From: a virus
DNA length: 64,000 bases
Strand: one strand, 5' to 3'
IMG/VR virus record: IMGVR_UViG_3300032053_000060
Location: 1 to 64,000 of that record
Position 1 is the stretch's first letter, and each line of letters opens with the position of its first letter. The notes below the pieces were generated by a model. The model had not been told where the DNA came from. It worked only from the letters and a program-made list of their open reading frames with translations, and ran no database searches. A program made the translations under genes and the position numbers. Positions 1,218-53,061 of the stretch are shown here, one piece after another.

Positions 1218-3026
1218 TCAGCCGACAAAGAACGAGGCTGGTTCAGAATATTGACCCTCATCCCACAATTGTTTTTCAAGACGATCTCTAAGAGCATCAC
1301 CACGATTTAAATACATTTCAAAGTTAACTGATGAACCTCCTGGCATAGTTAAATTATTATAACGACCAGAATTCATACCAACTTGAACCATAGCTAAGGC
1401 ATAAGCATATTCTCTTACCCATTGATGTTTATATAACGATTCTTCAGCAACTCTACGAGTACATGCTATTGCAATTACACCTCTATTAGTTGGAGGTGGG
1501 CTAATTATAATTTTGTTTTCGGTTTCTATAAATTGAACATTCATTTTTACAGTGAACATTTGTCTAAACATTTCTAGATATTGCATTCCCAGTTGCCATC
1601 CGATAACATCAACAGCTCCTGAACCACCACCCATCCAGAATCCCCATCGGTTATCTGTAGATGTTGAAGAATTCATCATACCCCAAGATCCACCACCTTG
1701 CATCATCATTCCTAATGGAGAGAACAATGCGCTATCTTCATTTGCCCCAGCAATACCAAACATTCCTAAATCTAAACGTCCACCTACTGCGATAATATCG
1801 GTTGGAACGTCATAAACAGTTTTGAATAAATACCCATTTTTTGAAGGTTTTCCAGATGTGTCACCTTCAGTCCAGAATGGACCAATTGCTGTAGGATCAC
1901 CAATAACGGAATCTGTGAAGCAATGTGGATCTTGGATATTATCACCACAAAATCCTGGACCTGGACCATCTACATCTTCTGGGCAACAATTTGGGTCAAT
2001 TGTAGTTGTTGCTGAAGTTTTCGGAGTTGTGTAGCATGATGAATTGTTATTTGTTCCCGTAGTTCCAGTAGTTCCAGTTGTTCCAGTAGTTCCAGTTGAA
2101 CTTACAGTTGCACATTGGCGGCTTAATTCTGCTAAATCATCAGGTGTTAATGCATTTAATTGTTCTACTGATAACCCTGAAAGATATTTAGGTAACGGAC
2201 TTCTCCATTTTCCTTTTGTTGGTCCTGGTTGAGAAACTTTCCCAGTACCATCATAATATAATAATTCTGGACTGATTAGAAGAATACTATCTTTGTTTCC
2301 AATTCCACCAGCATGTTCTGCAAATAAATCACAAGCTTGATCGATTGCATCATCAATTTGTGTGCTATCAATTGCGACACTTACGACAGGAGCACCCAAT
2401 TTACGTCTAATCCAATCTGCCAATTCGCGTTTTCGTCTGTATGGGCGCAAGCTCATTACTGAAGATGTGTCATCCATCGTAGTAGCTAAAGTTGTAGCTG
2501 TTGCAGTATTACTAAAATCTGAAGCATTATTTGAAGCATCTCTAGCTTTAATTCTATATGTATATGAAGTTTTAGTTGTGAGTCCTATGTCAGTATAATT
2601 TGGAACTAATGTTGTTGTTATTGGAGTTGTAAAATTATCACGATATATATCATATGCCACTACCCCAACATTATCCACAGCAGCTTTCCATGTGATATAC
2701 ACTGTACATGGTGATGTTGGGATTGCAGTTATAAATGGAGTACATGGAGGAAGTGTATCTAATGTAGTCACACATAATACATCAGTTAAAGGAGATAAAT
2801 TATTAGAAGTATCAACTGCTTGTATTTGATAACAATAAGTTGTCGCATTTTCTAATTGATCATCTGTAAACGTATAATAAATTATTGTTCCATACGTTGT
2901 AATATATATAGGATCGCTTAATGCTGATAAATTATCAGACGAATCTACAGATTGTATTTGATACGAATATGTTCTAGACGCATTGATTAAATCTGTATCA
3001 GTATATGTGTAAGTTACAACTGTCAT
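1218..3026 (-). CDS. gp13-like neck / head-completion protein with N-terminal FN3 segments
   Basis: A 602-residue protein. From about residue 188 it resembles T4 gp13-type neck proteins: RRKRELADWIRRKLGAP followed by a D..QIDDAIDQA helix, and a C-terminal block WVREYAYAL, LPGG-like MPGGSS, a helix, and the ending FFVG that is typical of the family. Inserted in the middle is a Gly-Thr-Thr repeat (about 310-325) and a Gly/Met-rich stretch. The N-terminus is odd: residues 1-45 and 46-90 are two C-terminal halves of FN3 domains, followed by one complete FN3 (about 91-182). The gene above it ends in the N-terminal half of an FN3. The start has an AAGGA site 5 nt upstream and lies 23 nt after the giant gene's stop. 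gp13 identity rests on motif recognition. Confidence 0.65.
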   Translation of the reverse strand: MTVVTYTYTDTDLINASRTYSYQIQSVDSSDNLSALSDPIYITTYGTIIYYTFTDDQLENATTYCYQIQAVDTSNNLSPLTDVLCVTTLDTLPPCTPFITAIPTSPCTVYITWKAAVDNVGVVAYDIYRDNFTTPITTTLVPNYTDIGLTTKTSYTYRIKARDASNNASDFSNTATATTLATTMDDTSSVMSLRPYRRKRELADWIRRKLGAPVVSVAIDSTQIDDAIDQACDLFAEHAGGIGNKDSILLISPELLYYDGTGKVSQPGPTKGKWRSPLPKYLSGLSVEQLNALTPDDLAELSRQCATVSSTGTTGTTGTTGTTGTNNNSSCYTTPKTSATTTIDPNCCPEDVDGPGPGFCGDNIQDPHCFTDSVIGDPTAIGPFWTEGDTSGKPSKNGYLFKTVYDVPTDIIAVGGRLDLGMFGIAGANEDSALFSPLGMMMQGGGSWGMMNSSTSTDNRWGFWMGGGSGAVDVIGWQLGMQYLEMFRQMFTVKMNVQFIETENKIIISPPPTNRGVIAIACTRRVAEESLYKHQWVREYAYALAMVQVGMNSGRYNNLTMPGGSSVNFEMYLNRGDALRDRLEKQLWDEGQYSEPASFFVG

Positions 3027-3049
3027 GTATGTCCTTGTATGTTGTAAAA

Positions 3050-6000
3050 TTATCTAGGTACAAATGCTATGAGAACGCCATTTCTATAAATGTTATATCC
3101 TTTTATTTCAGCGTTATCAGTTGAAGAATTCCATGATATAGTTGCAGCAAATCCAGAAACTGCAACAGAAGTTACGTTAATAGGAATTGATGGTGGCGTT
3201 ACATCTATAGTAGTAGTAATTATACTATTACTAAATTCTGAATAATTATTTGAAGCATCCTTAGCTTTAATTTTATAAGCATAAGAAGTAGCTTCATTTA
3301 ATCCACTATCATTATATGAAGTATTGGTAGTGAATGCGATTTGCGCACCATCACGATAAATGTCATAACCACTAACAGCTACATTATCAGTTGAAACTGT
3401 CCAATATATATGGGCAGATGATTGTGTAACATTACCACCTGATAAAATAGGAGTTGTTGGAGATTCTGTATCTATAGTTCGTAATGTTAAAATATTACTA
3501 AATGGAGAAATATTAATTGAAGAATCTATAGCAGTTATTTTATATGTGTGTAATTCCCCATTTCCTAAGTTATCATCTAAATACTCTTGAATTGGAGTAA
3601 ATCCACCAAAAGCACTAGCATTATTATTATTAAATATAAATCCTAATAACACATCGTTACGATAAACGTTATATCCAGACATAGAATTATTATCAGATGA
3701 TATTTCCCACATCAAATTAATGGATGACGGTGTTATCGTACCAGCGGATATTGCGGGTGTAGATGGAGGTTGATTGTCAAGGGTTGTCAAGACTAATTCA
3801 TTACTATTATTAGAAAAATTATTTGACATATCTTTAGCAATTATAAAATAATTATAAGTTGTAAAATTATCTAAATTAATATCAGTGTATGTTGTTAACG
3901 GACTTTGGACTGATGCGACATTAACCATATCACGATAAATATCATAACCACTAACTGCAACGTTATCAATTGAAACATCCCATGTTATTTGTATCGATGA
4001 TGGTGTAATACTTCCAGAATATATTGTTGGATCTGATGGATTTTCATTATCAAGAGTACGAACTATTAATATATTGCTAATATCTGAAGTATTTCCAAAT
4101 ATATCCATCGAAGAAACTTTATATGAATAATTTGTACCATTTGTTAATGCGACATCATTATAGAATGTGTCTGTTGTAAATGTTTGAAACTCATTATTTT
4201 TATACACTGTATAACCACTAACTCCAGCAGTATCAGTAGACGCATTCCACAATATTTGAATGTCGTATGGAGTTACAGTTCCAGCAGAAATTGACGGAAT
4301 TGAAGGAGGTACACCATCTAATGTAGTTTGTACTAAAGTATTACTAAAATCTGAGAAATTATTTGAAGTATCTTTAGCTTTTACTTTATATGTGTACGTA
4401 GTATAATTTGTTAATCCAAAATTTACAAAACTAGTTCCAGTGATAGAAGTTATTGGAGTTGTAAATGTATCACGATAAATATCATATCCACTAACTGCAA
4501 CGTTATCAGTAGACGCGTTCCATGATAAATATATAGACGATGTAGTAATAGTGTAAGCAGAAATCGACGGAACTGAAGGTGGCGTATTATCCAATGTAGT
4601 TAATGATATTTCATTATAGTTGGAGTTATTACCAGCAGCATCAATTGCTATTACTGAATATACATAAGTAGTTACATCTGCTAATGGAGAATCTGTAAAT
4701 GTCGTATCAGTCGTAAACCCTACAGGTGTTGGAAATAAATCAAGACGATAAACATAATATCCACTAACTCCAACATTATCGGTCGAAGCATTCCAATTTA
4801 TTGTAGCAGAAGATATTGTAGTAGTTCCAGCAAAAATTGTTGGAATTGTTGGAGCTTCGTTATCTAATGTAGTTAATGTTAATGTATTACTAAAATCTGA
4901 GAAATTATTTGAAGTGTCTTTAGCTTTAACTTTATACGTATATGATGTACCATTTGTTAATCCAAAATTTACAAAACTCGTTCCAGTGATAGAAGTTATT
5001 GGAGTTGTAAATGTATCACGATAAATATCATATCCACTAACTGCAACGTTATCAGTAGATGCTGTCCAATGTATAGAAATAACAGTAGCAGTTACCATTG
5101 CAGAAGATATTGATGGAGTTGAAGGTGCTATATTATCTAATGTAGTAGCTGTTATAGCATTACTAAACACTGAGAAGTTATTAGAAGTATCTTTAGATTT
5201 AACTTTATACACATATCGAGTCGTGCTTATTAATCCAGAATCTGCGTAACTTGTTCCAACGATAGATGTTATTGGAGTAGTAAATGTATCACGATAAATG
5301 TCATATCCGCTAACTGAAACGTTATCAGTTGATGCCGCCCAATTTACATAGATTGTGGTAGCTGATATAGTACCAAAAGAAATTGTTGGTGCTGTTGGAG
5401 CAGTAGTATCTAACGTGTTTATTATTAAAGTATTACTGAATCCAGAATCATTGAATGTTGTATCTTTTGCTTTAACTTTATACGTATATGCTGTACCATT
5501 TGTTAATGTGATATCATTATACGTTAAATTAGTCGTAAATGCGATTGGAGTTACGAAATCATCTCTATAGATAGAATATCCACTGACAGCAGTATTGTCA
5601 GTAGATGCATCCCATAATATTTGTGCAGATGTTGCTGATATAGTTCCAGCAGAAATTGTTGGAGTTGTTGGAGCATTAGTGTCTAATGTATTTAATGACA
5701 ACGTATTACTAAAATTTGAGAAATTATTTGAAGTATCTTTAGCTTTTACTTTATATGTGTACGAATTATTTGCAATTAAGCTATTATCAGTGTAACTTGT
5801 GCCAATAATTGATGTTACTGGAGTTGTAAATGTATCACGATAAATGTCATATCCACTAACTGAAACATTATCAGTTGATGCTGTCCATAATATATTTGCT
5901 GATGTTGGAGTTATTGTACCAGCAGAAATTGAAGGCGCAGTTGGAGCCACAGTATCTAAAGTAGTAGCCGTTATAGCGTTACTAAATACTGAGAAGTTAT

Positions 6001-9000
6001 TAGAAGTATCTTTAGATTTAATTTTATATATGTAAGTTATAGCAGATGTTAATCCGATATTATTATAACTGGTTCCAACAATAGATGTTATTGGCGTTGT
6101 AAAGGTATTGCGGTAAATATCATATCCACTAACTGCAACGTTATCAGTTGATGCGGTCCATAATAATTGAACTGATGTAGCAGATACTGTACCAGCAGAA
6201 ATAACTGGCGTTGAAGGAACTATATTGTCTAAAGTTGTAGAGCTTATAGCGTTACTAAATACTGAGAAGTTATTAGAAGTATCTTTAGATTTAATTTTAT
6301 ATACGTATTGTGTTGTACTTATTAATCCACTATCAGTATAACTCGTTCCGGTGATAGATGTTATTGGAGTTGTAAATGTATCACGATAAATATCATATCC
6401 ACTAACTGCAACGTTATCAGTTGAAGCATTCCAATGTATATTAATAGTTGCTGGAGTTATTGTTCCAGCGGAAATAACTGGAGTTGAAGGGACAACATTA
6501 TCTAAAGTAGTAGCAGTTATTGCATTACTAAATACTGAGAAGTTATTAGACGTATCTTTAGATTTAATTTTATATACGTAAGTTGTAGTAGTTATTAGAC
6601 TAGAATCAGTATAACTTGTACCAACAATAGATGTTATTGGCGTTGTAAAGGTATTGCGGTAAATATCATATCCACTAACTGCCGTGTTGTCTGTAGACGC
6701 ATTCCATAATATTTGTACAGAAGTTGCGTTAATAGTTCCAGCAGAAATAACTGGTGTTGAAGGTGCTACATTATCTAAAGTGTTTATGATTACAGTGTTA
6801 CTAAATGATGAGAAATTATTAGACGTATCTTTAGATTTAATTTTATATGTATAAGTTACAGATGGAACTAATGTCGTATCAGTATAACTTATGCCAGTAA
6901 TTGATGTTACTGGAGTTGTAAATGTATCACGATAAATATCATATCCGCTAACTGCAACGTTATCAGTAGAAGCAGTCCAACTTATTTGTGCAGATGTTGG
7001 AGTTACTGTGCCAGCAGAAATAACTGGTGTTGAAGGAACAACGTTATCTAAAGTACTAGCAGTTATAGCATTACTATAAACTGTAGCATTGCCTGATATG
7101 TCTTTCGCTTTAATTCTGTAAGTATATGACGTTCCAACCGATAATCCAGTATTTGTATAACTCGTATCAGTAGTAGACGCAATATAAACTATAGAACTAG
7201 TTCCACGATAAATATCGTAACCACTAATTGCAATATTATCAGTTGACGCATCCCATAATACTTGTATAGATGATGTAGTTATTGTACCAACGGATATTAC
7301 AGGAGTTGAAGGCGGCTCATTATCTAGAGTTGATATAGTTAATACGTTACTTAACACTGAATAATTTCCATTTATATCAAATACGTCAATCGCATATGTA
7401 TATTCAGTTCCGTTTGTTAATCCCACATCAGTATAACTATTGCCAGTGATTGTGGTTATTATAGAATTATCTCTATAAATGTCATATCCAGCAACTCCAA
7501 AATTATCTACTGAGGGATGCCACATTATTTGTACAGATGATGGAGTAATCGTTCCAGCGGATATTGATGGAAGTGTTGGTGCTAAGTCGTCTGGAGTTAT
7601 TGCAGTTGCTTCATTACTAAAATCAGAAATATTTCCAGATAAATCTGTTGCAAATATTTTATACGTATAAGAGTTTCCAATTACAAGTGACATTCTATCT
7701 ACATAATTTGTAACTGTGGAATTATCACCAGTTGATCGTCCTACTATATCAAAGGTTATATTATTAATACCATCAGCTCTAAACATCGTATATGTTAACA
7801 CTGCATATGCTGGTGCAGTCCAACTCAGGTCAATTTCTGAAGAATTTATTGGTTCTGCAATTAAATCAGTTGGAGGATCCAATATTATTGTAGGTAACGT
7901 TACGGTAGAACCTGAAGTTATTTGACTATATGACGAATAATTAAACGATTGATCTATTGCTTTTATTCTATATTCGTATGTTGTTCCTGGGGTCAATCCA
8001 ATATCTGTATATGCGCCAAAATTACTTCCAGTTATGGTTGATTCTATTAATGAAATATCATTTTTGATATTTTTAGCTATGACATATCCAATTACACCAG
8101 ATTCTCCATTAATATTATCAATAGATTTTGTCCATGTTAAATATGCAGAAGATATTGAAATTGCTTCTGCTGTTACATTTGTTGGAGTTGTTGGAGATTC
8201 TGTATCTAAATCTGATGTTGTAGTAATATTAACAGTATTACTAGGTGATGATATATTTCCATAAGTATCTGTTGTTATTATATAATAATCATATGTTGTT
8301 CCTGCGGTTAAATTAGTATCAATATACGAAGAGTCTCCGTAACTTGGAATAGAATTAACTAATATTCCATCTCTGTATATATAATATCCTAAAACATCAA
8401 CATTATCAGTAGAATCAGTAAACGATATTAAACTTCTTGTTTTTGATAATGCAGTTGCGGCAGTTATAACTGGAGCACTTGGAGCGGTAACATCTTTAAA
8501 CCATAAATATTCTGCACTACTTGGAGATTCGTCGAAATATTCATTAAATGATTTAACTGTATATGATGCTGATATTGGAGTTGTAATCATAACATCAAAA
8601 AATCTTGTAGTATTTTTTGCTCTAACAGTTCCAACTTTTATCAAATTTTTATATACATAATATCCTTCAACTTTTTCTTGTACTGGTGATGCTGTCCATT
8701 GTATATCAACGCCATAAGCACTAATACCTATGACTGAAGTTATAACTGGAGCGGTTGAAGGTGCTGCGGTTTCAGTTAATGTATAATCTTGTTCATATGC
8801 TCCCAAATCTGGAGGATTTAAACGTATATTACCCTCTTTGTCTAAAATTGGAGTTGATGGTGTAGTTAATCCTACGTTTAATACTGTAGCGCCAGCAGTT
8901 GACTTCAAATGTAAATTTTTAACCATACTCCAATTTCTATTGCCAGTAAACATAAATTTATTACGTTGTGAAGAACTGGTCATATCAATAGTATAATTGT

Positions 9001-12000
9001 TAGTAAATGGTCCTGCACCCATAGCCACACCACCATTACCAATTCCACCATCTACTGAAGTTCCAGTGCTTAATTCAAAATGTTCGGATATATTATTAAA
9101 TGCGCTACAATTTGTTGAGCCTGCTCCAGTATAAGAACCACCGCTATTTTTTTTACCAATTCTAATACCGGGAGGTCTAGATGAAGTACATAATGGACTA
9201 TATGCTCCAGCAATATGAGGGTCATAATATCCAGAAGTTGCTCTAATAACAGTATTATTAGCTATTAAACTTCTATCACTACCTTCAAGCCAAATACCAA
9301 TAGGATGATCGACCATAACAATGTTATTTGTTATAATATGTCTGTCACCACCATCAAATCCTCCAATTCCTTGAACGTCTGAAAATGGTGCGCCATATGG
9401 GAAATAATTACCAGTTATTGAAGTATTACCTGCCCATGCTGCATAATTTACAATGCCTGATGGAAGGTATGGATTAAAAGGATTTACTAATGATCTAAGT
9501 TCATTGTTTTGTACTTTAATATCAGAAACCGTTCCTCTAAATTGTATCATATCATTATGATTACTATCTGTGACTTTAAACATTTCTTGAATTTTATTAT
9601 TTACTATTACTGTACCATTTTGAGTAACGTGCATAGCATCAGATGTTGCACCTTCTATTATATTACCACTAATAGTAGTAGTATTACCCTTGAAATCTAA
9701 CATGAATCCAGCATAATTACGTAAGTGGTTTCCTATAAATTTTGCGTTAGTACATGCTTGAGTAGTAGATGCTGCTAATCCAACTTCAATACCGTTTCCA
9801 ATTCTTTCCATCCAATATGAACCATATTGAGATGGACTTGTTCCTCGCAATGTAGTCATTGTAGATTTTTGACTTGGGTAATATCCACTTCCACGTTCAA
9901 TTACGTTTTGTGCTCCGTATATTGTACAATTTTGTATAGTTATATTTGTAGATGCTTTACCCGAATTTGCTAATGCTCCTAAAATAATAGCTTGACTCAT
10001 TGCAGCATTACCATCACCAGCATTTTGTGATGTCCATGTTGGGATAAATGCATTTGCTGGCATAAGTTTAGATGTGATTGTAATACCATCAATCGTCCAA
10101 TTCCAAGCGCCAAAAGTTCTAAGTTTTCCAAAAATTGGAGTATGTCCTTGCATTGGAGTTACTAGAACTTTACCACCAGTAATTTGTTGTGTTATATCGG
10201 GACAGCCATGATATCCGCGAGCTAAATAAATAGTATCTTCAGCCTGAAATGATTGTGATGACACAACTTCAGCAAAGGTTTTCCAAGGCGAATTTATAGA
10301 ACCATCATTAGAATCTTTACCTATTAATGGGTCTATATAGTATTCTGTTAATCTAGGACTTGCAGATAACGGAGTGTTTACGGTTGACGAATTGCTAAAG
10401 TCAGATTTATTATTTATTACATCTACAGATTTAACTTTGTATGTATATGTAGAATCTGATAATAATCCAGTATCGAAATAATATATACCAGATGTATTTA
10501 CTATAGCTGTTGAAAAATTATTTCTATATAATTCATAAGAACTTACTAAACTTCCTCCAACATTTACAGTGGCAGCATTCCATGTTACAACAGTAGAATT
10601 AGATCCTGATAATGTTGCCAATAACCCTGTTGGAGCATTTGGAAATACTATTGGTGAAGGTGTTGTTACTGTTGCACTATTACTATAATTAGAATAATTA
10701 TTTGCAGCATCTCTTGCTCTAACTTTATAATTATATGTAGTTAATGGTAATAACAATCCGTCTAAATCATAATAACTTGTCGCTGATATATTTGAAACTG
10801 TAACAACATTACTTCCAGATATATCACGAACTAATTCATAATCAATAACTGCGACATTATCGCTTGAATTTGTCCAATTTAAATATACTGCTGTTGGCGA
10901 TATTGTAGTTGCAGATAATGAAGGTGTAGATGGAACTCCAATATCAGGAACAATTATAGTTACTAAATTACTAAATTCTGAAACGTTTCCAGAAATATCT
11001 TTTGATTTTACACCATATGTATATGCAGACGATCCAGATATTGGGGAATTGTCAGTATATTCAGTTATATTACTTGTAAGAGTTACTAAATAATCATATT
11101 GGGTATTATTTATATTTCTATAAACATCATAAAAATCAACTCCAGATGCTCCAACAGTAGGAGCGTCCCAATTCATATAAATTATATTGTTTAAAATACT
11201 TACTATTGAAACGTCTAAATTTTCTGGTGAGTTGACTAATTTATATGTTAATATGGTTGAAATATTACTAAAATCAGAAATATTACCAGCTTGATCTTTT
11301 GCTGTAGCCTTATATGTATAATGAGTTTCTGAACTTAATCCAGAATCATTATACGAAGTTGAACTACTAGGAATTGTCGAAATTAATGTATACTCTGGAC
11401 CACCAGAATCCATACGATATAAATCATATGCAGTAACACCAAATCCATAATTATCAGTTGATGCATTCCAAGAAATATATGAACCACTAATAGAAGTAGT
11501 AACTGCTGTTAAATTTTCAGGGACAGATGGAGCTACAGAATCAAAATCCGATATTGTTGTAACTATAGAATCTGAACTATAATTTGAATAATTATTTGAA
11601 GCATCAATGGCTCTTATATTATAAGTGTATTGAGTTCCTTGAAGTAATCCTGTATCAGAATATGATTCTGTTCCAGATATATTAGGAGTAACGTTGACAA
11701 AATTTACACCGTTTCTATATAATGCATATGCAATTACGCCACTACCACTACCATCAGATGATCCAGTCCAAGAAATAATAACTTTAGTTTGTGATAATGC
11801 TGAAGTTTGTAAATTAGTTGGTGACGCTGGGGGAGTAGTATCGGGAGTTACTACTACAGCATCACTTAACGTAGAAGTATTATAATATTTATCAAAGGCT
11901 TGAATTGTATATGTTCCTGCTACTGAAGAATTATATACTAAGAAATTAGTAACATTTTTTGTTCTAACATTACCAACTTTAACACTATCTTTAAATATAT

Positions 12001-15000
12001 AATATCCATCAACTTTGTCTGCTGAAACCGGAGAAGTCCAAGATAAATCTGCACCATAACCACTAATAGGTATTACTGTCAATCCTGTAGGTTGACTTGG
12101 AGAAGTGATATCTGGAACTCCATTAGAAACTGTATATTCATATGCACCAACATCTGGAGGAACATCTCGTAGAGTTCCATCAGCATCAGTATTTGGAAGA
12201 TTGCCAGAACTCTTACCAGTATTTAGTAATGTCAACGCACCAGAAGTTAAATGTGCATTTCTGCGGGCATAACTATAATCATTTGCATAAGAAAAGTTTG
12301 CAAAATTTGTTGTATAATCACCAGCATTGTAATTTAATGCTATGTTTCCACCACTAATCATATTACTTACTGGTATTACGAAGTTTTCAGCTACGTTATT
12401 AAATGCACTAGTTCCATACGTTGGAGAAAGTATTGTTATAATTGGAACTTGGACACCAGATTGACTTCCACTTGTAGCTCTAAGTATAGTATTAAAGTTT
12501 ATTCTACTCTTTGTACCAGCAGTTTTTAAGTATATTCCATAAGGGTGGTCAATTATTATAATATTATTTTCAATCGATACGTTATATGCAGAAGTACCAG
12601 TTGCTGATGGTATAATACCATAAATTCTACCTTCTGGACCACTAGCAGCATTCCAAGCTCTACTTAAATGTGCTTGTTTAGGATTTGTAAATGCTATAAA
12701 TTCATTATTTTTAATATATGAAATTGGATTAGTGCTAGAAGCTCCTAACAATAACATTCTACCTTCAGTATTATTTCCACTATTAACTGTTGCGAATTTA
12801 GTGTGAGCATTTAAAACTTTATTATATTCAAATGTAGCATAATCTGATTGTAATGTTACTGCCGCTGTTGAAGTTGTACCTATTGCGAAATCTTCAATTA
12901 TATTATGACCAATATAAGCACTAGTAGATCCCGAATACGATTCTATGCCGCCTATATTGTATAAATGATTTCCTCTAAAAGTATTTCCTAATCCATAATT
13001 TTTAATACCAGTACCTATACCAGCTTCTGTTATCCAATTCGTATCAGTCCAACTTGAAGTATCTTGTGCGCCATATATAGTACAATTTTCAATTGTTATA
13101 TAACTTGAATTATTACCAACTCCGGTATATGTGGTTACAGCTTTATTAGCATTAAATATACCAGTTATATCAGCATGTCCAGATGGGGTGTTTGCTCTAC
13201 TTATTGTTAAACCTTTGAAATTCCATCGATTAGCATTTCTTAAAGTTAAACTACGAATAACTGGAGTATGTCCAGGCATTGGTAATACATATACATCAGC
13301 ACTTGCTGCAATATTTCCAGAAGAAATATATGGAGTTCCGTGGTATCCACGATATAGATAAATTCTATCACCAGGATTAAACGTCTTAGCATTTACAACA
13401 TCGGCTAACGTATTCCATGGTTGACGTATAGTGCCAGGATTATTAATATTACCAATTAATGGATTTACATAAAATTCGGTTTGAGTAGTTGTGACTCCTG
13501 CTGATGTTGTTAATGTAATAATGTTACTAAATGATGATTCGTTATTTGATGTATCTTTTGATTTAACTTTATAAACATATTCAGTATTATCAATTAATCC
13601 AGTATCAGAATATGATAATCCTGTAGTAAATGCGATTGGATTAACGAAAGAATTTCTATATACATTATATCCACTAACAGCAACGTTATCAGTAGAGGCG
13701 TTCCAAGATAACGATATTGACGACGATGATGACACTTGACCAGATAATGAAGGAGTAGTTGGTCCTGTTATATCACTGGTAATTGGAACAGTTGTAGTTG
13801 CGGTAATAGAATTGCTGTAAACAGATTCATTATTTGAACTATCAACGGCTGCAACATTGTAAATATAAGGAGTATTTTGAGTTAATCCAATATTTAAATA
13901 AGACAATCCAGTTACAGAAGTTATGATTGACGAATTTCTATAAACATTATATGAAACTACAGCAACGTTATCGGTCGAAGATGTCCATATTAAATTAACT
14001 GAGGTTGGAGTAATTGTTCCTGTTGATAATACTGGAGAAGAAGGTAGCTCTGTATCAGTTGTGGTATCATAAGAAACATCGCTAAAATTTGATATATTTC
14101 CTAATCCGTCTAATGCTCTAATTTTATAATAATATGTTACACCAGAATTTAATCCAGTATCATTCACATCATTGCTATTGTACGCAATACCAGATAGCCT
14201 TAATGAAAATCCACTTGTATCAGAAGTTAAACTTGAATATATGTTATAACTACCATTACTATCAATATCTGTAGTTGCATCCCAAGATATTGATATACTG
14301 TTAGGTCCAGAATTTATAACTGCAAAGTTTTGTGGTATTTGTAAAGTTCTACCAGTTGTTATAGTTTGGGTGGTACTATATGCTGAAGTATTTCCAGATA
14401 AATCAAAAGATTTAACTTTATAAGTATAAACAATATTTTCAGATAATCCAGTATCAGTATAATAATTTTGAGTTGATCCAGTTATTTCTATTAAATTTCT
14501 TGCTAATATATAACCAGCTAATCCAACTCCACCAATATTATCAGTTGAAGCATTCCACGTTATATATGTGCTAGTTGAAGATAATGTTGATACTGATAAT
14601 CCAGTTGGAACAGAAGGGGCAACTAAATCTTCTGACGATGATGTTATTATATTTACAATATTACTAGCATCTGATAAATTATTATAAGCATCTTTTGCTT
14701 TTAATGTGTAATTATATGAAGAATTTGAAACTATGGTTGTATCAGTATAATTTAATACTCCGTCAACAACCGTGGCTAATAAATTTGAATCTCTATAAAC
14801 ATTATATGCAACTACTTCAAAATTATCCGTCGCCGCATCCCATAATAATTGTGCAGACGATGTAGTTAATGTTCCTGCTGATAATGTTGGAGTAGATGGC
14901 GCAATTAAATCTGGACCAGCAGTTATACCATTACTTAAAGTGGAAACATTGTAAAATTTATCAAAAGATTGAATAGTATATGTACCACTTGCTGCGGGAT

Positions 15001-16555
15001 CTAATACTAAGAAATTTGTAGTGCTTTTAGTTCTAACATTTCCGACTCTTGTTCCATTTCTAAAAATGTAATAACCGTCAACTTTTTCAGCAGATACTGG
15101 AGCAGTCCATGATAAGTCTACACCATAACCACTAATAGGTCTTGATATTAATCCAATTGGTTGGCTTGGAGATGTAATATCTGGAGCGTTGTTAGAAACA
15201 CTATATTCAAATGCGCCAACGTCTGGGTTGCCTGAACGAAGTGTGCCATCTAAGTCTATTGTTGGTATACTAGAACCACTTATACCAGCATTAATTAATG
15301 TTAAAGCGCCAGAAGTTAAATGTGCATCTCTATATGCTGCGGAAAAATCATTAGCAAAATTAAATTTTACTAAATTAGTTGCATAATTTCCATCATTATA
15401 ATTTAAAACATAATTTCCACCGCTGGTAATATTTGATACTGGAATTGCAAATCCTTCAGCAATATTATTATATACTGTGGTAACACCAGTATTTATAACA
15501 ACTGTTATTAACGGAATACTTACACTTCCACTTGCGGCACGAACTACAGTATTATTGATAATTTTACTATTACTAGGTTTTAAGTATATACCATAAGTAT
15601 GATCTACTGCAACTAAATTATTTTCAATTGTATAATTATAAACGGTTGTGGTAGTAGCTGAACCAAATATACCATAAATTCTACTTGTTGGTCCAGTAGC
15701 ACTAGTCCAATCTGTATTTAAATGTGCTTGTTTTGGATTTGTAAATGCTATAAGTTCATTATTTCTAATTATTGTGCGCGGATTAGTATTTGTAGAACCT
15801 ATTCTTAATATATTAGCTTCAATATTTACACCAACACCACTGCCACCATTTATAGTGGAAAATTTAGAATGCGCGTTCATAACTTTATTGTATTCAAATG
15901 TCGAATAATCTGAAGCTAATAATGCACCATAATCAACATATCTAGTGCTAAATGCAAAATCTTCAATTGTATTATAACCAACATATGCACTAGTAGAACC
16001 AGAATACGAATATATACCACTGTTGTTATATAAATGGTTTCCAATAAATCTATTTCCGAGTCCGTAATTTTTAATACCAGCAGTCACACCAGCTTCAGCA
16101 ACCCATGTTGCGTCAGACCATACAGAGGCGTCTTGCGCTCCATATACAGTACAATTTTCAATTGTAATATGATTTGAAGGACTTGAAGAATACATGGTTA
16201 CAGATTTATTTCCAGATAATGCTACTAATGCAAAATCAGAATGTCCAGCAGGAGTCGCAGAACGAGTTATTGTAAGACCTTTAAAATTCCAATGATTAGC
16301 ACCACTTAAAGTTAAACTACGAATAATTGGCGAATGTCCAGAGACTGGTAATACATATACATCAGCACTAGCATTTAAACTTCCACTATTAACTATAAAT
16401 GGCGTACCATGATAACCACGTTTTAAATATATTTTATCACCAGGATTAAATACTTTATTAGCAACAACTAATGCTAAAGTACTCCAAGGTTGACTGTTTG
16501 TACCAGGGTTGTTTATATTACCATTAAGTGGATCTACATAATAATCTATACCCAT
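3050..16555 (-). CDS. Giant fibre-like protein: three parallel beta-helix domains and about 32 FN3 domains
   Basis: A 4,501-residue protein, probably an adhesin, whisker or fibre of the virion. Order: beta-helix 1 (about 1-455), six FN3 domains, beta-helix 2 (about 1020-1475), six FN3 domains, beta-helix 3 (about 2065-2590), then about 20 FN3 domains and a last half domain. Each beta-helix starts with a similar Y(V/I)DPL.G motif, contains N-N-T/E-N-C rungs of the pectate-lyase fold, and ends in D(V/L)GA(Y/F)E. FN3 units are about 90 residues with S(T/V)DN...GY.(I/V)YR and YKVK(A/S)KD motifs. I chose the ATG at 16555 because GAGGGAG lies at the correct spacing; an in-frame TTG 18 nt upstream overlaps that ribosome site. 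A TATAAATA box sits about 43 nt upstream. No signal peptide or membrane segment is seen. The protein stops in the middle of its last FN3 domain, and the neck gene begins with the matching half. Confidence 0.8.
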   Translation of the reverse strand: MGIDYYVDPLNGNINNPGTNSQPWSTLALVVANKVFNPGDKIYLKRGYHGTPFIVNSGSLNASADVYVLPVSGHSPIIRSLTLSGANHWNFKGLTITRSATPAGHSDFALVALSGNKSVTMYSSSPSNHITIENCTVYGAQDASVWSDATWVAEAGVTAGIKNYGLGNRFIGNHLYNNSGIYSYSGSTSAYVGYNTIEDFAFSTRYVDYGALLASDYSTFEYNKVMNAHSKFSTINGGSGVGVNIEANILRIGSTNTNPRTIIRNNELIAFTNPKQAHLNTDWTSATGPTSRIYGIFGSATTTTVYNYTIENNLVAVDHTYGIYLKPSNSKIINNTVVRAASGSVSIPLITVVINTGVTTVYNNIAEGFAIPVSNITSGGNYVLNYNDGNYATNLVKFNFANDFSAAYRDAHLTSGALTLINAGISGSSIPTIDLDGTLRSGNPDVGAFEYSVSNNAPDITSPSQPIGLISRPISGYGVDLSWTAPVSAEKVDGYYIFRNGTRVGNVRTKSTTNFLVLDPAASGTYTIQSFDKFYNVSTLSNGITAGPDLIAPSTPTLSAGTLTTSSAQLLWDAATDNFEVVAYNVYRDSNLLATVVDGVLNYTDTTIVSNSSYNYTLKAKDAYNNLSDASNIVNIITSSSEDLVAPSVPTGLSVSTLSSTSTYITWNASTDNIGGVGLAGYILARNLIEITGSTQNYYTDTGLSENIVYTYKVKSFDLSGNTSAYSTTQTITTGRTLQIPQNFAVINSGPNSISISWDATTDIDSNGSYNIYSSLTSDTSGFSLRLSGIAYNSNDVNDTGLNSGVTYYYKIRALDGLGNISNFSDVSYDTTTDTELPSSPVLSTGTITPTSVNLIWTSSTDNVAVVSYNVYRNSSIITSVTGLSYLNIGLTQNTPYIYNVAAVDSSNNESVYSNSITATTTVPITSDITGPTTPSLSGQVSSSSSISLSWNASTDNVAVSGYNVYRNSFVNPIAFTTGLSYSDTGLIDNTEYVYKVKSKDTSNNESSFSNIITLTTSAGVTTTQTEFYVNPLIGNINNPGTIRQPWNTLADVVNAKTFNPGDRIYLYRGYHGTPYISSGNIAASADVYVLPMPGHTPVIRSLTLRNANRWNFKGLTISRANTPSGHADITGIFNANKAVTTYTGVGNNSSYITIENCTIYGAQDTSSWTDTNWITEAGIGTGIKNYGLGNTFRGNHLYNIGGIESYSGSTSAYIGHNIIEDFAIGTTSTAAVTLQSDYATFEYNKVLNAHTKFATVNSGNNTEGRMLLLGASSTNPISYIKNNEFIAFTNPKQAHLSRAWNAASGPEGRIYGIIPSATGTSAYNVSIENNIIIIDHPYGIYLKTAGTKSRINFNTILRATSGSQSGVQVPIITILSPTYGTSAFNNVAENFVIPVSNMISGGNIALNYNAGDYTTNFANFSYANDYSYARRNAHLTSGALTLLNTGKSSGNLPNTDADGTLRDVPPDVGAYEYTVSNGVPDITSPSQPTGLTVIPISGYGADLSWTSPVSADKVDGYYIFKDSVKVGNVRTKNVTNFLVYNSSVAGTYTIQAFDKYYNTSTLSDAVVVTPDTTPPASPTNLQTSALSQTKVIISWTGSSDGSGSGVIAYALYRNGVNFVNVTPNISGTESYSDTGLLQGTQYTYNIRAIDASNNYSNYSSDSIVTTISDFDSVAPSVPENLTAVTTSISGSYISWNASTDNYGFGVTAYDLYRMDSGGPEYTLISTIPSSSTSYNDSGLSSETHYTYKATAKDQAGNISDFSNISTILTYKLVNSPENLDVSIVSILNNIIYMNWDAPTVGASGVDFYDVYRNINNTQYDYLVTLTSNITEYTDNSPISGSSAYTYGVKSKDISGNVSEFSNLVTIIVPDIGVPSTPSLSATTISPTAVYLNWTNSSDNVAVIDYELVRDISGSNVVTVSNISATSYYDLDGLLLPLTTYNYKVRARDAANNYSNYSNSATVTTPSPIVFPNAPTGLLATLSGSNSTVVTWNAATVNVGGSLVSSYELYRNNFSTAIVNTSGIYYFDTGLLSDSTYTYKVKSVDVINNKSDFSNSSTVNTPLSASPRLTEYYIDPLIGKDSNDGSINSPWKTFAEVVSSQSFQAEDTIYLARGYHGCPDITQQITGGKVLVTPMQGHTPIFGKLRTFGAWNWTIDGITITSKLMPANAFIPTWTSQNAGDGNAAMSQAIILGALANSGKASTNITIQNCTIYGAQNVIERGSGYYPSQKSTMTTLRGTSPSQYGSYWMERIGNGIEVGLAASTTQACTNAKFIGNHLRNYAGFMLDFKGNTTTISGNIIEGATSDAMHVTQNGTVIVNNKIQEMFKVTDSNHNDMIQFRGTVSDIKVQNNELRSLVNPFNPYLPSGIVNYAAWAGNTSITGNYFPYGAPFSDVQGIGGFDGGDRHIITNNIVMVDHPIGIWLEGSDRSLIANNTVIRATSGYYDPHIAGAYSPLCTSSRPPGIRIGKKNSGGSYTGAGSTNCSAFNNISEHFELSTGTSVDGGIGNGGVAMGAGPFTNNYTIDMTSSSQRNKFMFTGNRNWSMVKNLHLKSTAGATVLNVGLTTPSTPILDKEGNIRLNPPDLGAYEQDYTLTETAAPSTAPVITSVIGISAYGVDIQWTASPVQEKVEGYYVYKNLIKVGTVRAKNTTRFFDVMITTPISASYTVKSFNEYFDESPSSAEYLWFKDVTAPSAPVITAATALSKTRSLISFTDSTDNVDVLGYYIYRDGILVNSIPSYGDSSYIDTNLTAGTTYDYYIITTDTYGNISSPSNTVNITTTSDLDTESPTTPTNVTAEAISISSAYLTWTKSIDNINGESGVIGYVIAKNIKNDISLIESTITGSNFGAYTDIGLTPGTTYEYRIKAIDQSFNYSSYSQITSGSTVTLPTIILDPPTDLIAEPINSSEIDLSWTAPAYAVLTYTMFRADGINNITFDIVGRSTGDNSTVTNYVDRMSLVIGNSYTYKIFATDLSGNISDFSNEATAITPDDLAPTLPSISAGTITPSSVQIMWHPSVDNFGVAGYDIYRDNSIITTITGNSYTDVGLTNGTEYTYAIDVFDINGNYSVLSNVLTISTLDNEPPSTPVISVGTITTSSIQVLWDASTDNIAISGYDIYRGTSSIVYIASTTDTSYTNTGLSVGTSYTYRIKAKDISGNATVYSNAITASTLDNVVPSTPVISAGTVTPTSAQISWTASTDNVAVSGYDIYRDTFTTPVTSITGISYTDTTLVPSVTYTYKIKSKDTSNNFSSFSNTVIINTLDNVAPSTPVISAGTINATSVQILWNASTDNTAVSGYDIYRNTFTTPITSIVGTSYTDSSLITTTTYVYKIKSKDTSNNFSVFSNAITATTLDNVVPSTPVISAGTITPATINIHWNASTDNVAVSGYDIYRDTFTTPITSITGTSYTDSGLISTTQYVYKIKSKDTSNNFSVFSNAISSTTLDNIVPSTPVISAGTVSATSVQLLWTASTDNVAVSGYDIYRNTFTTPITSIVGTSYNNIGLTSAITYIYKIKSKDTSNNFSVFSNAITATTLDTVAPTAPSISAGTITPTSANILWTASTDNVSVSGYDIYRDTFTTPVTSIIGTSYTDNSLIANNSYTYKVKAKDTSNNFSNFSNTLSLNTLDTNAPTTPTISAGTISATSAQILWDASTDNTAVSGYSIYRDDFVTPIAFTTNLTYNDITLTNGTAYTYKVKAKDTTFNDSGFSNTLIINTLDTTAPTAPTISFGTISATTIYVNWAASTDNVSVSGYDIYRDTFTTPITSIVGTSYADSGLISTTRYVYKVKSKDTSNNFSVFSNAITATTLDNIAPSTPSISSAMVTATVISIHWTASTDNVAVSGYDIYRDTFTTPITSITGTSFVNFGLTNGTSYTYKVKAKDTSNNFSDFSNTLTLTTLDNEAPTIPTIFAGTTTISSATINWNASTDNVGVSGYYVYRLDLFPTPVGFTTDTTFTDSPLADVTTYVYSVIAIDAAGNNSNYNEISLTTLDNTPPSVPSISAYTITTSSIYLSWNASTDNVAVSGYDIYRDTFTTPITSITGTSFVNFGLTNYTTYTYKVKAKDTSNNFSDFSNTLVQTTLDGVPPSIPSISAGTVTPYDIQILWNASTDTAGVSGYTVYKNNEFQTFTTDTFYNDVALTNGTNYSYKVSSMDIFGNTSDISNILIVRTLDNENPSDPTIYSGSITPSSIQITWDVSIDNVAVSGYDIYRDMVNVASVQSPLTTYTDINLDNFTTYNYFIIAKDMSNNFSNNSNELVLTTLDNQPPSTPAISAGTITPSSINLMWEISSDNNSMSGYNVYRNDVLLGFIFNNNNASAFGGFTPIQEYLDDNLGNGELHTYKITAIDSSINISPFSNILTLRTIDTESPTTPILSGGNVTQSSAHIYWTVSTDNVAVSGYDIYRDGAQIAFTTNTSYNDSGLNEATSYAYKIKAKDASNNYSEFSNSIITTTIDVTPPSIPINVTSVAVSGFAATISWNSSTDNAEIKGYNIYRNGVLIAFVPR
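4320..7330 (-). repeat. Tandem FN3-coding repeats, nearly identical in DNA
   Basis: About eleven consecutive FN3-coding units of roughly 270-280 nt lie here. They share long near-identical DNA blocks; for example the plus-strand string cgataaatatcatatccact recurs at this spacing. At the protein level the shared core is GYDIYRDTFTTPITSI followed by KSKDTSNNFS. Copy number could change by homologous recombination. Confidence 0.8.
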
Positions 16556-16740: not shown

Positions 16741-17328
16741 TCAAATCTTATAATGAATTTTAATTAATTTGACCAATTCCCATTTTTTTTCTTTTGGCTT
16801 TTTATCATTTAAAAATGACATATCTATATTTAAAGCCTTACAAGCACGTTCCAATTGTTCAACTTTTATCGTTAACCAATTGACAACCCTTGGATCAAAA
16901 TCAACTATATCTATTTCTGGAGAATTTTTAACAATATCTTTTTCAATAATGTCAGTTTCTTTTTCATTTTGTTTTATAATAGGACTATGATTCTCTATAA
17001 CCGTCTCAGCAATCTGCTTATTGATTGGTTCTGGTTCATATTCTGCCGCAGGCTCATCTTTTTTAACATCCATTGGAATTCTATATCGTTCTGGAATCTG
17101 TATTTCTTCTACTTTGTTGTCAGTATACTCCATTTTATTATTTTGTGTCATAGAATCAATCATGCTAAAATCTGCCATTAGAGGTGATAAAAAAGGAAAT
17201 TGAGTAAGTATTTCATACGGACCTTGAATTACTTCACCAGTTTTTAAAGTTATTGCTGGTGAATCTTTTTCCCACACTTTTCTTAAATTTACAGGAAATT
17301 CCATTTTATTATAAAATCTTATTTGCAT
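16741..17328 (-). CDS. Unknown acidic protein with N-terminal GExIxGP module
   Basis: A 195-residue protein of unknown function. The N-terminal 50 residues (IRFYNK...LKTGEVIQGP) form a short beta-like module that is also seen, diverged, at the start of the glycosyltransferase at 32126. The middle (about 60-140) is low-complexity and rich in Glu, Pro and Ile, so probably disordered. The last 45 residues (VEQLERACKALNID... KWELVKLIK) resemble small SAP or Rho-N type helical modules, which often bind nucleic acid or proteins. GGAGAG lies 6 nt before the ATG. It is on the same strand as, and upstream of, the giant fibre gene, so a virion or assembly role is possible but unproven. Confidence 0.7.
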   Translation of the reverse strand: MQIRFYNKMEFPVNLRKVWEKDSPAITLKTGEVIQGPYEILTQFPFLSPLMADFSMIDSMTQNNKMEYTDNKVEEIQIPERYRIPMDVKKDEPAAEYEPEPINKQIAETVIENHSPIIKQNEKETDIIEKDIVKNSPEIDIVDFDPRVVNWLTIKVEQLERACKALNIDMSFLNDKKPKEKKWELVKLIKIHYKI

Positions 17329-17381: not shown

Positions 17382-19145
17382 TTAGCAATTTATCTTCCAT
17401 TTTTTATATCCACAATCCCATAATTTATATATTTCATTAGTTTTCGTTATTTCGCTTTCACTACCATTTTCAAGTTTAAATAACTTTTTAAGTCTATATT
17501 TATTAAAAGTAAATCTATGTTTTCGCTTCCATAATGTAATATTTCCAACATAAAAATATCTAATTGGTATACAACTGATCAAAGAAAACCCATTTTTTAA
17601 ATATACATCTCCACTACCCCACCTATTATCACTGTATGATATTAAAGTTTTCGTTCTATTAAATCTTCTAAAATGTGTTAATAATTTACTAAATGCACCG
17701 GGAATAGAACAATTTAACTTATTACAAAATCTATTTAGCTCAAAATCAGCTTTTCTAGTTTTTATAGCGTTATTAAAACACATTATAGATATTAGTTCAT
17801 TTTTATAATATAACCCATAAGATATAGTCGTTTGTTTACAATATCCTTGTAAATGATTAGTTTCACAAAATACATGGCTATCATATTTATTAACCATTTT
17901 AATTTCACATTTTCTAGCAAATACTTTATAATCACAAATTCCTAAAGAATTTTTTATTTTAGATTTACAAATTTCATTTTTATCATCCCATTCATCTTCA
18001 AAAATAGTCAATAACTTCACATTTTTTTCTAAACATTTGAGTAATTTATCATTATGATAATTTTTATCTGATATATATTTTTCACTATGCCAAATATTTC
18101 CACAAAATTCTATAGCAAGATTTTTATTAGGAATGAAAATATCTAATTCTTTTGGGGAAATAACAGTTTTATCATTTTGTATAACTATATCTAAATATAT
18201 ACTTTGTACAAAGTCGTATACTTCATTTTCTTTTCCTCTTTTTATACTTTTATAACATTTAGGACATACAAGTTTATAATACTTTCCAGTTATTTGCGAC
18301 CAAGAAAAATTAAAATCATGTCCACAATCATTACATTTAAAATTTATAAGGGATTCAGTGGTATTATAATATATATCAGTATCAGGAATAAATATTCTAT
18401 TTTCTTTACATATATTTTTTAATTTTTCACAAACTTGTTTTTTATTTTTTAGTTTACTACACCCTAAACACTTATTTAAATTATTTATTAAAGTTTCAAC
18501 TTCATAACCACAATCATTACACTTAAATTTAGATTTAACTCTTGTACCATTAAATTCTATAATTGACCAATTAAGTTTTTGTATTTTATTTAAACAACTT
18601 GGGGTTATAACTTTATTAATTGATGGGTGTGGTATGTTAAATGTTACACCATTTTCAATTTTAATCTTTTCTATTTTATTTAAATACTCAGCTTCAGTTA
18701 AAATGCCAATACTTCTTATTTTGCAAATTTGACATTCTATTTTTTGTTGAGTTTTTTCAAAATATCCTAAAGATTTAATAACTATCTTATTTAAATCATT
18801 TTTACAAATAAAAGTTAGAGAATCATCCCATCTATTATAAAACTCTTTTTTTGGTTCATAATCTAAATTAAATTTATCACAATAATCTATTATTAATTGT
18901 TTTGGTATGCCCATTTCTATATACTTTTGTTCTTTTTCACAATGAGGACAAATGGTAATATCTTTTTGATTTCTGCGTATTTGAGTTATAGAAACTTTAT
19001 AAATATGATTTAAATTATTTTTACACTTAATTTCTATTAAAGTATTACAATTGAATTCTGATTTACTAGGAATATTTATTTCAACATTTTTAAATAAAAA
19101 ATATTCATTTAATAAATCCGTCATGTTCGGCTTTGGACGAGGCAT
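17382..19145 (-). CDS. Free-standing Vsr-like homing endonuclease with zinc fingers (long form)
   Basis: A 587-residue probable homing endonuclease. CxxC pairs occur along the first 300 residues (for example CPHCEK, CQICK, CNDCGY, CLGCS, CNDCGH, CPKCYK), suggesting four or more zinc-bound DNA-reading modules. The nuclease core starts near residue 315: PKELDIFIP then LAIEFCGNIWHSE and FEDEWDDK, which gives the Asp, Glu, His and Asp positions expected in the EDxHD/Vsr-like group. A further C-terminal region (about 430-587, with NHLQGYC and SYSDNRWGSG) is shared with the next gene. AAGGA lies 8 nt before the ATG. It sits between the major capsid gene and the giant fibre gene, a typical place for an intron-less selfish gene. 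Confidence 0.75.
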   Translation of the reverse strand: MPRPKPNMTDLLNEYFLFKNVEINIPSKSEFNCNTLIEIKCKNNLNHIYKVSITQIRRNQKDITICPHCEKEQKYIEMGIPKQLIIDYCDKFNLDYEPKKEFYNRWDDSLTFICKNDLNKIVIKSLGYFEKTQQKIECQICKIRSIGILTEAEYLNKIEKIKIENGVTFNIPHPSINKVITPSCLNKIQKLNWSIIEFNGTRVKSKFKCNDCGYEVETLINNLNKCLGCSKLKNKKQVCEKLKNICKENRIFIPDTDIYYNTTESLINFKCNDCGHDFNFSWSQITGKYYKLVCPKCYKSIKRGKENEVYDFVQSIYLDIVIQNDKTVISPKELDIFIPNKNLAIEFCGNIWHSEKYISDKNYHNDKLLKCLEKNVKLLTIFEDEWDDKNEICKSKIKNSLGICDYKVFARKCEIKMVNKYDSHVFCETNHLQGYCKQTTISYGLYYKNELISIMCFNNAIKTRKADFELNRFCNKLNCSIPGAFSKLLTHFRRFNRTKTLISYSDNRWGSGDVYLKNGFSLISCIPIRYFYVGNITLWKRKHRFTFNKYRLKKLFKLENGSESEITKTNEIYKLWDCGYKKWKINC

Positions 19146-19180: not shown

Positions 19181-20611
19181 TTAAATGTCAACAATTTTAT
19201 GCCACAAAAACTTAATAGATCCACATTTATAAACTTTAATAAATCCGTTTGATGTCATAATGTCGTTTTCGTTCTTAATTTGCGTCTGGTAACGACTTAA
19301 TACTTTATTTCCTTTTATCCATACATATCCAGGATCAGTTATTGATATTTGTTTAAAATTTAACTTTTTGTATAAATTGCCACAAGACCAATCCATATCT
19401 GCATATGATATTATATTTTTAGGGTTTATAATTTTTATAAAGTGAGATAATAATCTACTAGCGCCACCAACTATAGTATCCTTTGAAACATATCTTAATA
19501 GTTCATATTCGTGATCAGTAAATCTACTTTTACCAAATGTCATTAACGCAACTAATATGTTATCATTATATAATCCATAATTAAATGATGATATAGTCCA
19601 TCCTTGTAAATGATTTTCTAAACAAAACTTTTTAGCATCTTTATAAATGACTTCTTTTATTTGTAATTTTCTAGCAAATATAATAACATCTTTTTTTAAT
19701 ATAGATTTTATTCTATTTTTAATGATTTGATTTTTATTAATCCAATCATGTTCATAAATCATTATAATGTTTATATTTTTAGATAATCCAAGAAGTTTTT
19801 TGTCTTTGTGATAATATTGCCCCTTTTTACCGAAACTATGCCAATAATTTCCATTATACTCAAATGCGACATTTAATTTTGGAAAATAAAAATCTAATTC
19901 TTTTGGATTAATTGCTGATCTATCATTTCTAATATAGTCAATATTTTCTATTAATCCCAATGAATCGAAATATTTTTTTAATTCGTTTTCACCATTACTT
20001 ACAGAAGGCATTATTACACATTTTGGACATCCATTTGCCAAATATATATGATTATGTATATTTTGTGAAAATTCGCCATGTTTTTTACATATTATTGTTC
20101 TATTCAACCCAGTATCTTCCATTTTTGAATAATCATATTTATCGTTATGAATTTTATTAGCTTTTTCTATCCATATGTCTTTATTATATGTGTGATTTCT
20201 ATTATATATTTCATGTGAACATTTATTACAAATATGTTCAGATTTTTTATAAAATAATGATTCTATTTTTATAATTCTTGAATGATTATGTTTTAAACAA
20301 GTAATTTTTATTTTAGTTTTATTTCCATTAAATTCTTCCATCATTTCAATTTTAATGTTAATAGTATCAAATTTTTTTATTTTTTCGTTATATTTTTCAA
20401 TGGTTAATGGAGAATTATCATTACAACATTTAATTTTTCTGGCTTGAAATGTGTATTCTCTAGATTGCAGTTGAGAATACTTATGAATTGGACAAAAAAC
20501 TTTTATTTTATCTTTTTGTGTTTCTAATCCTGTAAAAGTGTATTCATATCCTGTTTTTTGTGAAGATTCATTCAATCTATTTGATATTTCATCTTTAGTC
20601 ATTTTTTTCAT
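19181..20611 (-). CDS. Free-standing Vsr-like homing endonuclease with zinc fingers
   Basis: A 476-residue probable homing endonuclease related to its downstream neighbour. The N-terminal 205 residues contain zinc-ribbon units, including CNKCSHEIY and the common phage pattern DKYDYS...C..HGEFSQ...H....GCPKC. The nuclease core (about 225-290) shows PKELDFYFP, VAFEYNGNYWHSF and YEHDW. The C-terminal region (about 320-476) contains NHLQGW and SYADMDWSCGN, matching NHLQGYC and SYSDNRWGSGD in the other protein. The start has AGGAG about 10 nt upstream. It lies just after the capsid protein terminator, so it is probably expressed separately from the capsid operon. Confidence 0.75.
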   Translation of the reverse strand: MKKMTKDEISNRLNESSQKTGYEYTFTGLETQKDKIKVFCPIHKYSQLQSREYTFQARKIKCCNDNSPLTIEKYNEKIKKFDTINIKIEMMEEFNGNKTKIKITCLKHNHSRIIKIESLFYKKSEHICNKCSHEIYNRNHTYNKDIWIEKANKIHNDKYDYSKMEDTGLNRTIICKKHGEFSQNIHNHIYLANGCPKCVIMPSVSNGENELKKYFDSLGLIENIDYIRNDRSAINPKELDFYFPKLNVAFEYNGNYWHSFGKKGQYYHKDKKLLGLSKNINIIMIYEHDWINKNQIIKNRIKSILKKDVIIFARKLQIKEVIYKDAKKFCLENHLQGWTISSFNYGLYNDNILVALMTFGKSRFTDHEYELLRYVSKDTIVGGASRLLSHFIKIINPKNIISYADMDWSCGNLYKKLNFKQISITDPGYVWIKGNKVLSRYQTQIKNENDIMTSNGFIKVYKCGSIKFLWHKIVDI

Positions 20612-52900: not shown

Positions 52901-53061
52901 TTAAAGATGTTTTGCCTAAAGAATTTAACTTGCATGAGTACATAGACTACGATATAATATACGAGAAGAATTTATTAACCCCATTAAAAAGGTTTTACGA
53001 TGCTTTAAATTGGCAAATACCAAACTTTAACCAAGATGACATATCAGACCTATTCAATTAA
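49963..53061 (+). CDS. 43: Family B DNA polymerase gp43 with a mini-intein
   Basis: A 1,032-residue precursor; splicing leaves 866 residues (T4 gp43 has 898). Proofreading exonuclease: FIDIEVHSEEG (about 107-117), GWNCMPFDIPY (about 188), YNFVDVQLL (about 297). Polymerase: motif A SFDATSLYPSVM (about 385), motif B LLNSTYGYVGTRY (about 520), motif C CGDTD|SLY, cut by the intein at residues 587-752. The lysine-rich KKKNYV and the C-terminal tail, which in T4 binds the clamp gp45, are present. AAGGGG precedes the ATG. It is the core of the replisome with gp41, gp32, gp45 and gp44, all in this window. Confidence 0.95.
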   Translation: MYSSVYLSRRTSKIHYWEYNEKGKKCYKSCPAPMYFYMKSEDGEYTSIYGDKLKKVEFDSYEKYKSSKEMFKTSGHELFESDVSIENRFILDNYSKEKVNIPKYDIYFIDIEVHSEEGFPLPEKADHPITIITIYSTAQNKYFIFSEKLFDTKFLPENAEVNFYNGDEQKLLIGFIEFIRKSHPDVLSGWNCMPFDIPYIINRGYKLLGEEITNSLSPIKQIRKETRKTRWGLPYEIYKIMGINIIDYLELYRKYEAGERESYKLDFIAELELEKGKIKYEGSLKELYHNDWQKYCEYNFVDVQLLVELDRVKQFFNILFTVCCNCRVPFEQYDKTVRVLDGAFISKLGKNKIILPDAKEVDETAEKFEGAFVFDTISGAYDWVVSFDATSLYPSVMLLHNISPETKVLVINPISVSKVCDILDGKESSEQEQNSMAYEDKSVKDMAEFILKNNYSISSNGVVYRHDKQGVVSSFIAEWFEKRQYHKKLMKKAKEAGNHDEMVKQDGLQYNYKILLNSTYGYVGTRYSRMFDLHNAEAVTKTGQECIKKSMDSVNYFFQNKWENSKVGMKVNAKNTGNLVICGDTDSISHDSIITYDKNKYTIRDFFNKLYKEQFNNYKIGTNYREFIFPENVKLPYYDEELKKIKLGKVQYVEKHITNKKMYKIKTKSGKYIKVTEDHSVMVLKDGKLIQKKPTELIKTDKIITIKLPDYEIDEIESIELISDGTEEQEVYDIGMINTPHTFFANDILVHNSLYLNCGDILKSFKYPHENDIPKCKEFLDKKVITLINSIIEPAIEQLTTKRLNSPKNTIFFKREMIARRAIFLKKKNYVAWVMNMEGVDVKDIENPKDSLKAKGIELIKSTFGKDLKNFMRDYIFELLHHLDNSKSNDKMKQIKSKFKELSIESIAKIGNIKEFYKYLDSNQLPIKGATSAAKASAGHNLLLKQKNLQSIYPEIREGDKIKIVSLKDCPFYKFDVIAFKDVLPKEFNLHEYIDYDIIYEKNLLTPLKRFYDALNWQIPNFNQDDISDLFN
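51721..52218 (+). mobile_element. Mini-intein at the catalytic motif C of DNA polymerase (pol-c site)
   Basis: A 166-residue intein inserted between Asp and Ser of the CGDTD|S(L)Y motif, the same site as inteins in several archaeal family B polymerases. It starts with Ser1 (SISHDSII), has block B with TEDHSV, and ends EVYDIGM...ANDILVHN before Ser+1. No LAGLIDADG or other nuclease motif is seen, so it can splice but not home alone. Confidence 0.9.

Follow-up and report, generated by a model that had tools for sequence, protein, structure and literature searches.

In T4, the neck protein gp13 forms a dodecamer that holds twelve fibritin (gpwac) neck fibres through its domain III (residues 193–238; PMC12270204). 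The gene described here, from an uncultured T4-like phage, resembles this system in two ways: by profile it is a gp13 homologue, and several relatives have fibre-like genes close to gp13 or immediately upstream of it. It departs from T4 in that (i) the protein carries an N-terminal FN3 extension, whereas T4 holds fibritin through the internal domain III, and (ii) the upstream protein is a giant of FN3 and beta-helix domains that was not recognised as fibritin in family searches of its FN3 end and beta-helices. The initial annotation had likened the junction to the docking of T4 whiskers. That analogy has some footing in the gene, whose product binds fibritin in T4, and in the fibre-like genes upstream of it in relatives; the part of gp13 that T4 uses, against the analogy, is domain III and not the N-terminus (PMC12270204).

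Mobile Ig-like and FN3 domains are appended to phage structural proteins, according to the account of Fraser et al. (2006) given in PMC5009743. The arrangement reported here is a new form of this decoration, located on a neck protein, and its gene boundary is unusual and real. As in that account, Ig/FN3-type domains are joined to a virion protein. With respect to the decorated proteins as they are presented there, the domains differ in being N-terminal rather than C-terminal, in residing on the neck adaptor, in belonging to repeats shared with the adjacent fibre gene, and in combining half-domains with separate translation instead of a frameshift.

Results

Gene layout and the giant fibre protein

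We analysed a window of 64,000 nt lying within a 67.8-kb IMG/VR contig. The minus strand encodes the portal (with an intein), prohead protease, scaffold, major capsid protein and two homing endonucleases, together with a 195-aa protein, the giant FN3/beta-helix protein, the gp13-type neck protein and, at the contig end, a further endonuclease (Table 1). No gp14-like protein was found in the contig, which ends after the neck gene and this one endonuclease gene.

Table 1 Features of the giant/neck region (window coordinates)
Feature	Position	Strand	Description
Neck protein gene	1218..3026	minus	gp13/head-tail adaptor Ad2-like, 602 aa
gp13 core	1221..2456	minus	residues 191-602; gp13 genes of relatives start at the equivalent of RPYRRK
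Complete FN3 of neck protein	2487..2759	minus	residues 90-180; nearest to giant repeats 17-32
Half FN3 'B'	2760..2894	minus	neck residues 45-89; profile 45-89; strands E,F,G; duplicate of A
Half FN3 'A'	2895..3023	minus	neck residues 2-44; profile 47-88; strands E,F,G
Inverted repeat, 7 bp	3041..3047 and 3014-3020	minus	left arm TTACAAC, right arm GTTGTAA; around Shine-Dalgarno and ATG
Intergenic gap	3027..3049	minus	23 nt, from giant stop TAA (3050-3052) to neck ATG (3024-3026)
Shine-Dalgarno	3032..3036	minus	AAGGA, 5 nt before neck ATG
Last FN3 of giant, first half only	3053..3205	minus	residues 4457-4507; profile 1-48 of 89; strands A,B,C,C'
Giant fibre/adhesin gene	3050..16555	minus	three right-handed beta-helix (choice-of-anchor-Q-like) domains and 33 FN3 hits
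195-aa gene	16741..17328	minus	counterparts upstream of gp13 in L009, L011, L012/L013, L016

The giant ORF runs for 13.5 kb without a stop. Its start is likelier to be ATG 16555, which has GGGAG upstream, than the mechanically listed TTG 16573, giving a protein of about 4,501 residues. We built a profile of 89 positions from 20 of the giant's complete FN3 repeats and searched both the giant and the neck protein with it, obtaining 33 matches in the giant. The complete repeats match Pfam fn3 and fn3_2 and have the seven-strand FN3 fold, with Z of 12–15 against solved FN3 structures. Of the three beta-helix domains (window 8789–16546), the first and second are 62% identical and the third and first 36%.

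The searches run found no relatives of the giant in IMG/VR. Its beta-helix had no match among phage records, and its C-terminal 316 aa gave only generic FN3-type matches there, below 60% identity. No fibritin family was among the matches of the family searches, which covered the FN3 end and the beta-helices; the structural searches showed FN3 for complete repeats only, and a missing fibritin match there carries no evidential weight.

One FN3 domain is divided between two genes

The giant ends at position 48 of the 89-position profile and the neck protein begins at position 47, so that the final giant match (1–48) and the first neck match (47–88) form a break that is complementary within two positions. 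This agrees with the initial annotation, which had proposed a single FN3 domain divided between the two proteins and had also given the 23-nt gap (3027–3049), the change of frame, the coordinates and the sequences correctly. What it had overlooked is that another half-domain adjoins the first, and that a complete FN3 separates this pair from the conserved gp13 core. The neck frame is indeed open upstream through IILQHTRTY, as had been claimed, but a TAG at 3054–3056 confines any −1 shift: because this neck-frame stop overlaps the sense codon immediately preceding the giant's TAA, a shift is possible at one codon boundary only. The pattern AAGGA-N4–9-ATG occurs twice, in any frame, in 15.3 kb of the minus strand, and one of the two matches lies inside the 23-nt gap. 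The predicted fold of the inverted-repeat region is no more stable than that of shuffled sequences.

FN3 pieces on the neck protein

Halves A and B are 57% identical, and the next best relative in the array reaches 45% at most; they are thus each other's nearest relatives and constitute a duplicated half-unit. Their divergence (dS about 1.2, dN about 0.31 and dN/dS about 0.26, approximate values from 42 codons) argues that the neck halves are probably not debris. The complete FN3 that follows them scores a mean of 47% to giant repeats 17–32 versus 37% to repeats 1–16, which points to the end of the fibre array as the origin of the FN3 pieces on the neck.

By profile, the neck protein is gp13/head-tail adaptor Ad2 (phrog_211, E 1.8e-20) and matches the solved gp13 chains 9mkb and 9lu4 at E about 1e-9. 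Seven close gp13 relatives (L009, L011–L016) share 50–55% identity in the best segment. In all seven, gp13 starts with M(R/V)PY(R/K/Q)KK, without FN3, and a Shine-Dalgarno precedes this start in the six of six that were inspected. In the window, none was found at the corresponding starts 2477, 2456 or 2450. Since AAGGA precedes the upstream ATG and the site equivalent to that of the relatives has no start signal, the FN3 extension is, as judged from the sequence, most likely the real gp13 N-terminus in this phage; the relatives without FN3 mark it as an addition, and this phage is the only one in which it was seen. Neither FN3 nor the giant's end had a match in the contigs of those seven relatives, and no gp13 was found in bacterial genomes.

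The stretch upstream of gp13 is variable among the relatives. In L012 and L013, gp13 directly follows a 182-aa gene (the 'empty' arrangement), in L009, L011 and L015 fibre-like genes lie before the 182-aa-type gene or between it and gp13, and in L016 the stretch contains an inverted gene. The T4-like order of gp13 followed by gp14, gp15, terminase and sheath is present in L009, L011 and L013. The gp13 of L016 itself appears as two ORFs (206 and 151 aa; 10007–11245 of that contig), which may reflect a sequencing indel or inactivation of this copy.

Structure models

AF2 models were computed for single chains from alignments built from the repeats themselves, which biases them toward FN3. AF2 is mostly confident about the two full repeats nearest the giant end, at about 95 for the final one, and models the terminal half of repeat 33 with strands A, B, C and C' at a confidence of about 70. 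In each neck half, strands F and G are formed but strand E is not, its segment being unpaired, as expected of open sandwiches. Confidence is low in the gp13 core, for which we therefore make no claim of fold.

Discussion

We consider it probable that the 3' end of the fibre array was joined to gp13 with a stop–RBS–start boundary inside repeat 33, and that two proteins are made. In this scheme, the variable stretch upstream of gp13 would be occupied by the giant FN3/beta-helix fibre gene, with its repeats continuing into gp13; gp13 would have lost its own RBS and start, and translation of the fusion would begin at ATG 3026, within FN3 repeat 33. One operon would then yield two separate proteins, a fibre ending in a half FN3 (A,B,C,C') and a gp13 that begins with two copies of the E,F,G half and a complete FN3 and continues into the normal neck core. 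By analogy with T4, FN3 material would be displayed on the virion by every neck subunit, of which a T4-type ring would have twelve.

The domain boundaries, the relatives without the extension, the loss of the native RBS, the new RBS and a half-unit duplication with fewer amino-acid-changing than silent changes all support this account. That fibre-array DNA became part of gp13 follows from the similarity of the complete neck FN3 to the last 16 repeats of the giant, together with the relatives that lack FN3. The earlier suggestion that an old single protein was split survives in modified form: the boundary lies inside one repeat of a fibre array whose DNA was joined to gp13. Against the account stand the occurrence of the arrangement in one genome only and a dN/dS based on 42 codons. 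Moreover, half B shares the left boundary of half A, so that a half-domain beginning at position 45–47 can arise without a gene split, and the 48/47 match is weaker as proof of one cut domain. The locus would represent the movement of a gene boundary caught inside a repeat array: an essential neck protein gained fibre repeats, and its start codon now lies within a former fibre domain.

The half-domains might alternatively be functionless scars, in which deletion or duplication in the array shifted the frames, a fortuitous RBS rescued gp13 and the stubs were tolerated. We regard this as the less likely course, although a serious contender. Rearrangement is easy in tandem repeats, and the neck halves score lower per profile position than the full neck repeat. 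The gap DNA also looks weakly FN3-derived: its best local score of 36 was attained in 13 of 1000 shuffles and in 16 of 600 segments from elsewhere in the genome, a marginal likeness on which we did not accept that the gap derives from the array. Scores of 70 for the gap were discarded because that comparison had included the gap itself. A neutral scar, in contrast, would be expected to gather stops or disappear, whereas the two halves have diverged at the low dN/dS given above and keep the FN3 pattern of F and G strands.

The two-protein arrangement that we favour leaves room for a physical link between its products. Complementation of FN3 fragments in vitro has reportedly been described by Dutta et al. 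in 2005. Our locus resembles that system in that an FN3 could be rebuilt from two polypeptides, here as a candidate only; unlike the phage, the complementation system was engineered. The strand inventory, with A, B, C and C' on the fibre and E, F and G on the neck, makes docking by domain completion stereochemically reasonable, although the half-domain is present twice on the neck. Completion of the fibre's terminal half-FN3 in trans by a neck half-FN3, attaching the fibre to the neck, is nevertheless a tentative proposal that we hold to be somewhat improbable, and a shade more doubtful is the fuller version in which a natural split FN3 acts as a fibre–neck lock on the gp13 ring and every neck subunit keeps its duplicated half as a spare. 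Pairing of the half-domains, if it occurs, would make the locus a clear natural case of domain-splitting put to use as an interface for assembly, and would give phages a simple means of putting new fibres on an old neck.

The neck halves could instead pair with each other, or across neighbouring subunits of the gp13 ring, in a composite sandwich unrelated to the fibre. They are adjacent, duplicated and similar, and two E-F-G units amount to six strands, but the AF2 monomer has separate short F and G strands in each half with low confidence between them (residues 47–50), and we judge such pairing unlikely.

Sequencing error is an unlikely source of the boundary, and the specific proposal that an assembly or sequencing indel interrupts what is truly one continuous ORF appears very improbable. 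A one-base change could unite the frames, and the sequence is a single metagenome contig; however, the 13.5-kb array is open elsewhere, one of only two AAGGA-N4–9-ATG matches falls exactly within the 23-nt gap, and a fused gp13 would be left without a separate start.

Hardly credible is a programmed −1 frameshift, which the initial annotation had considered, or a ribosomal bypass, with part of the product fused to about 5,100 residues: the neck frame has no stop until 3053 is reached and Ig-like domains are known to be added by frameshifting in phages (PMC5009743), but neither the slippery heptamer nor the stimulatory structure of a programmed −1 cassette was found at the junction (RNA fold z-score 0.01 against shuffles), the overlap of the neck-frame stop with the giant's last sense codon restricts a shift to a single-codon window, the second ORF has a good, dedicated Shine-Dalgarno, and fusion would add about ten residues inside the C'-E loop. 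Bypass of the T4 gene 60 type was rejected on reading the sequence, as the next neck-frame AGA lies 78 nt on and its use would remove the E strand.

Endonucleases and inteins

Freestanding endonuclease-like genes at 14–1138, 17382–19145 and 19181–20611 border the fibre/neck and capsid genes, and could have helped exchange at the fibre/neck site. Elsewhere in the window, the portal (gp20) gene (24221–27001) contains an intein bearing a LAGLIDADG endonuclease domain, and a family B DNA polymerase gene (49963–53061) contains a probable intein at about residues 634–752, slightly under the Pfam cut-off. Among the relatives, the large terminase gene is broken by endonuclease ORFs in L011 (9068–12372), L009 (10382–13684) and L014 (11095–14212); in L009 and L011, the pieces flanking these ORFs resemble parts of inteins.
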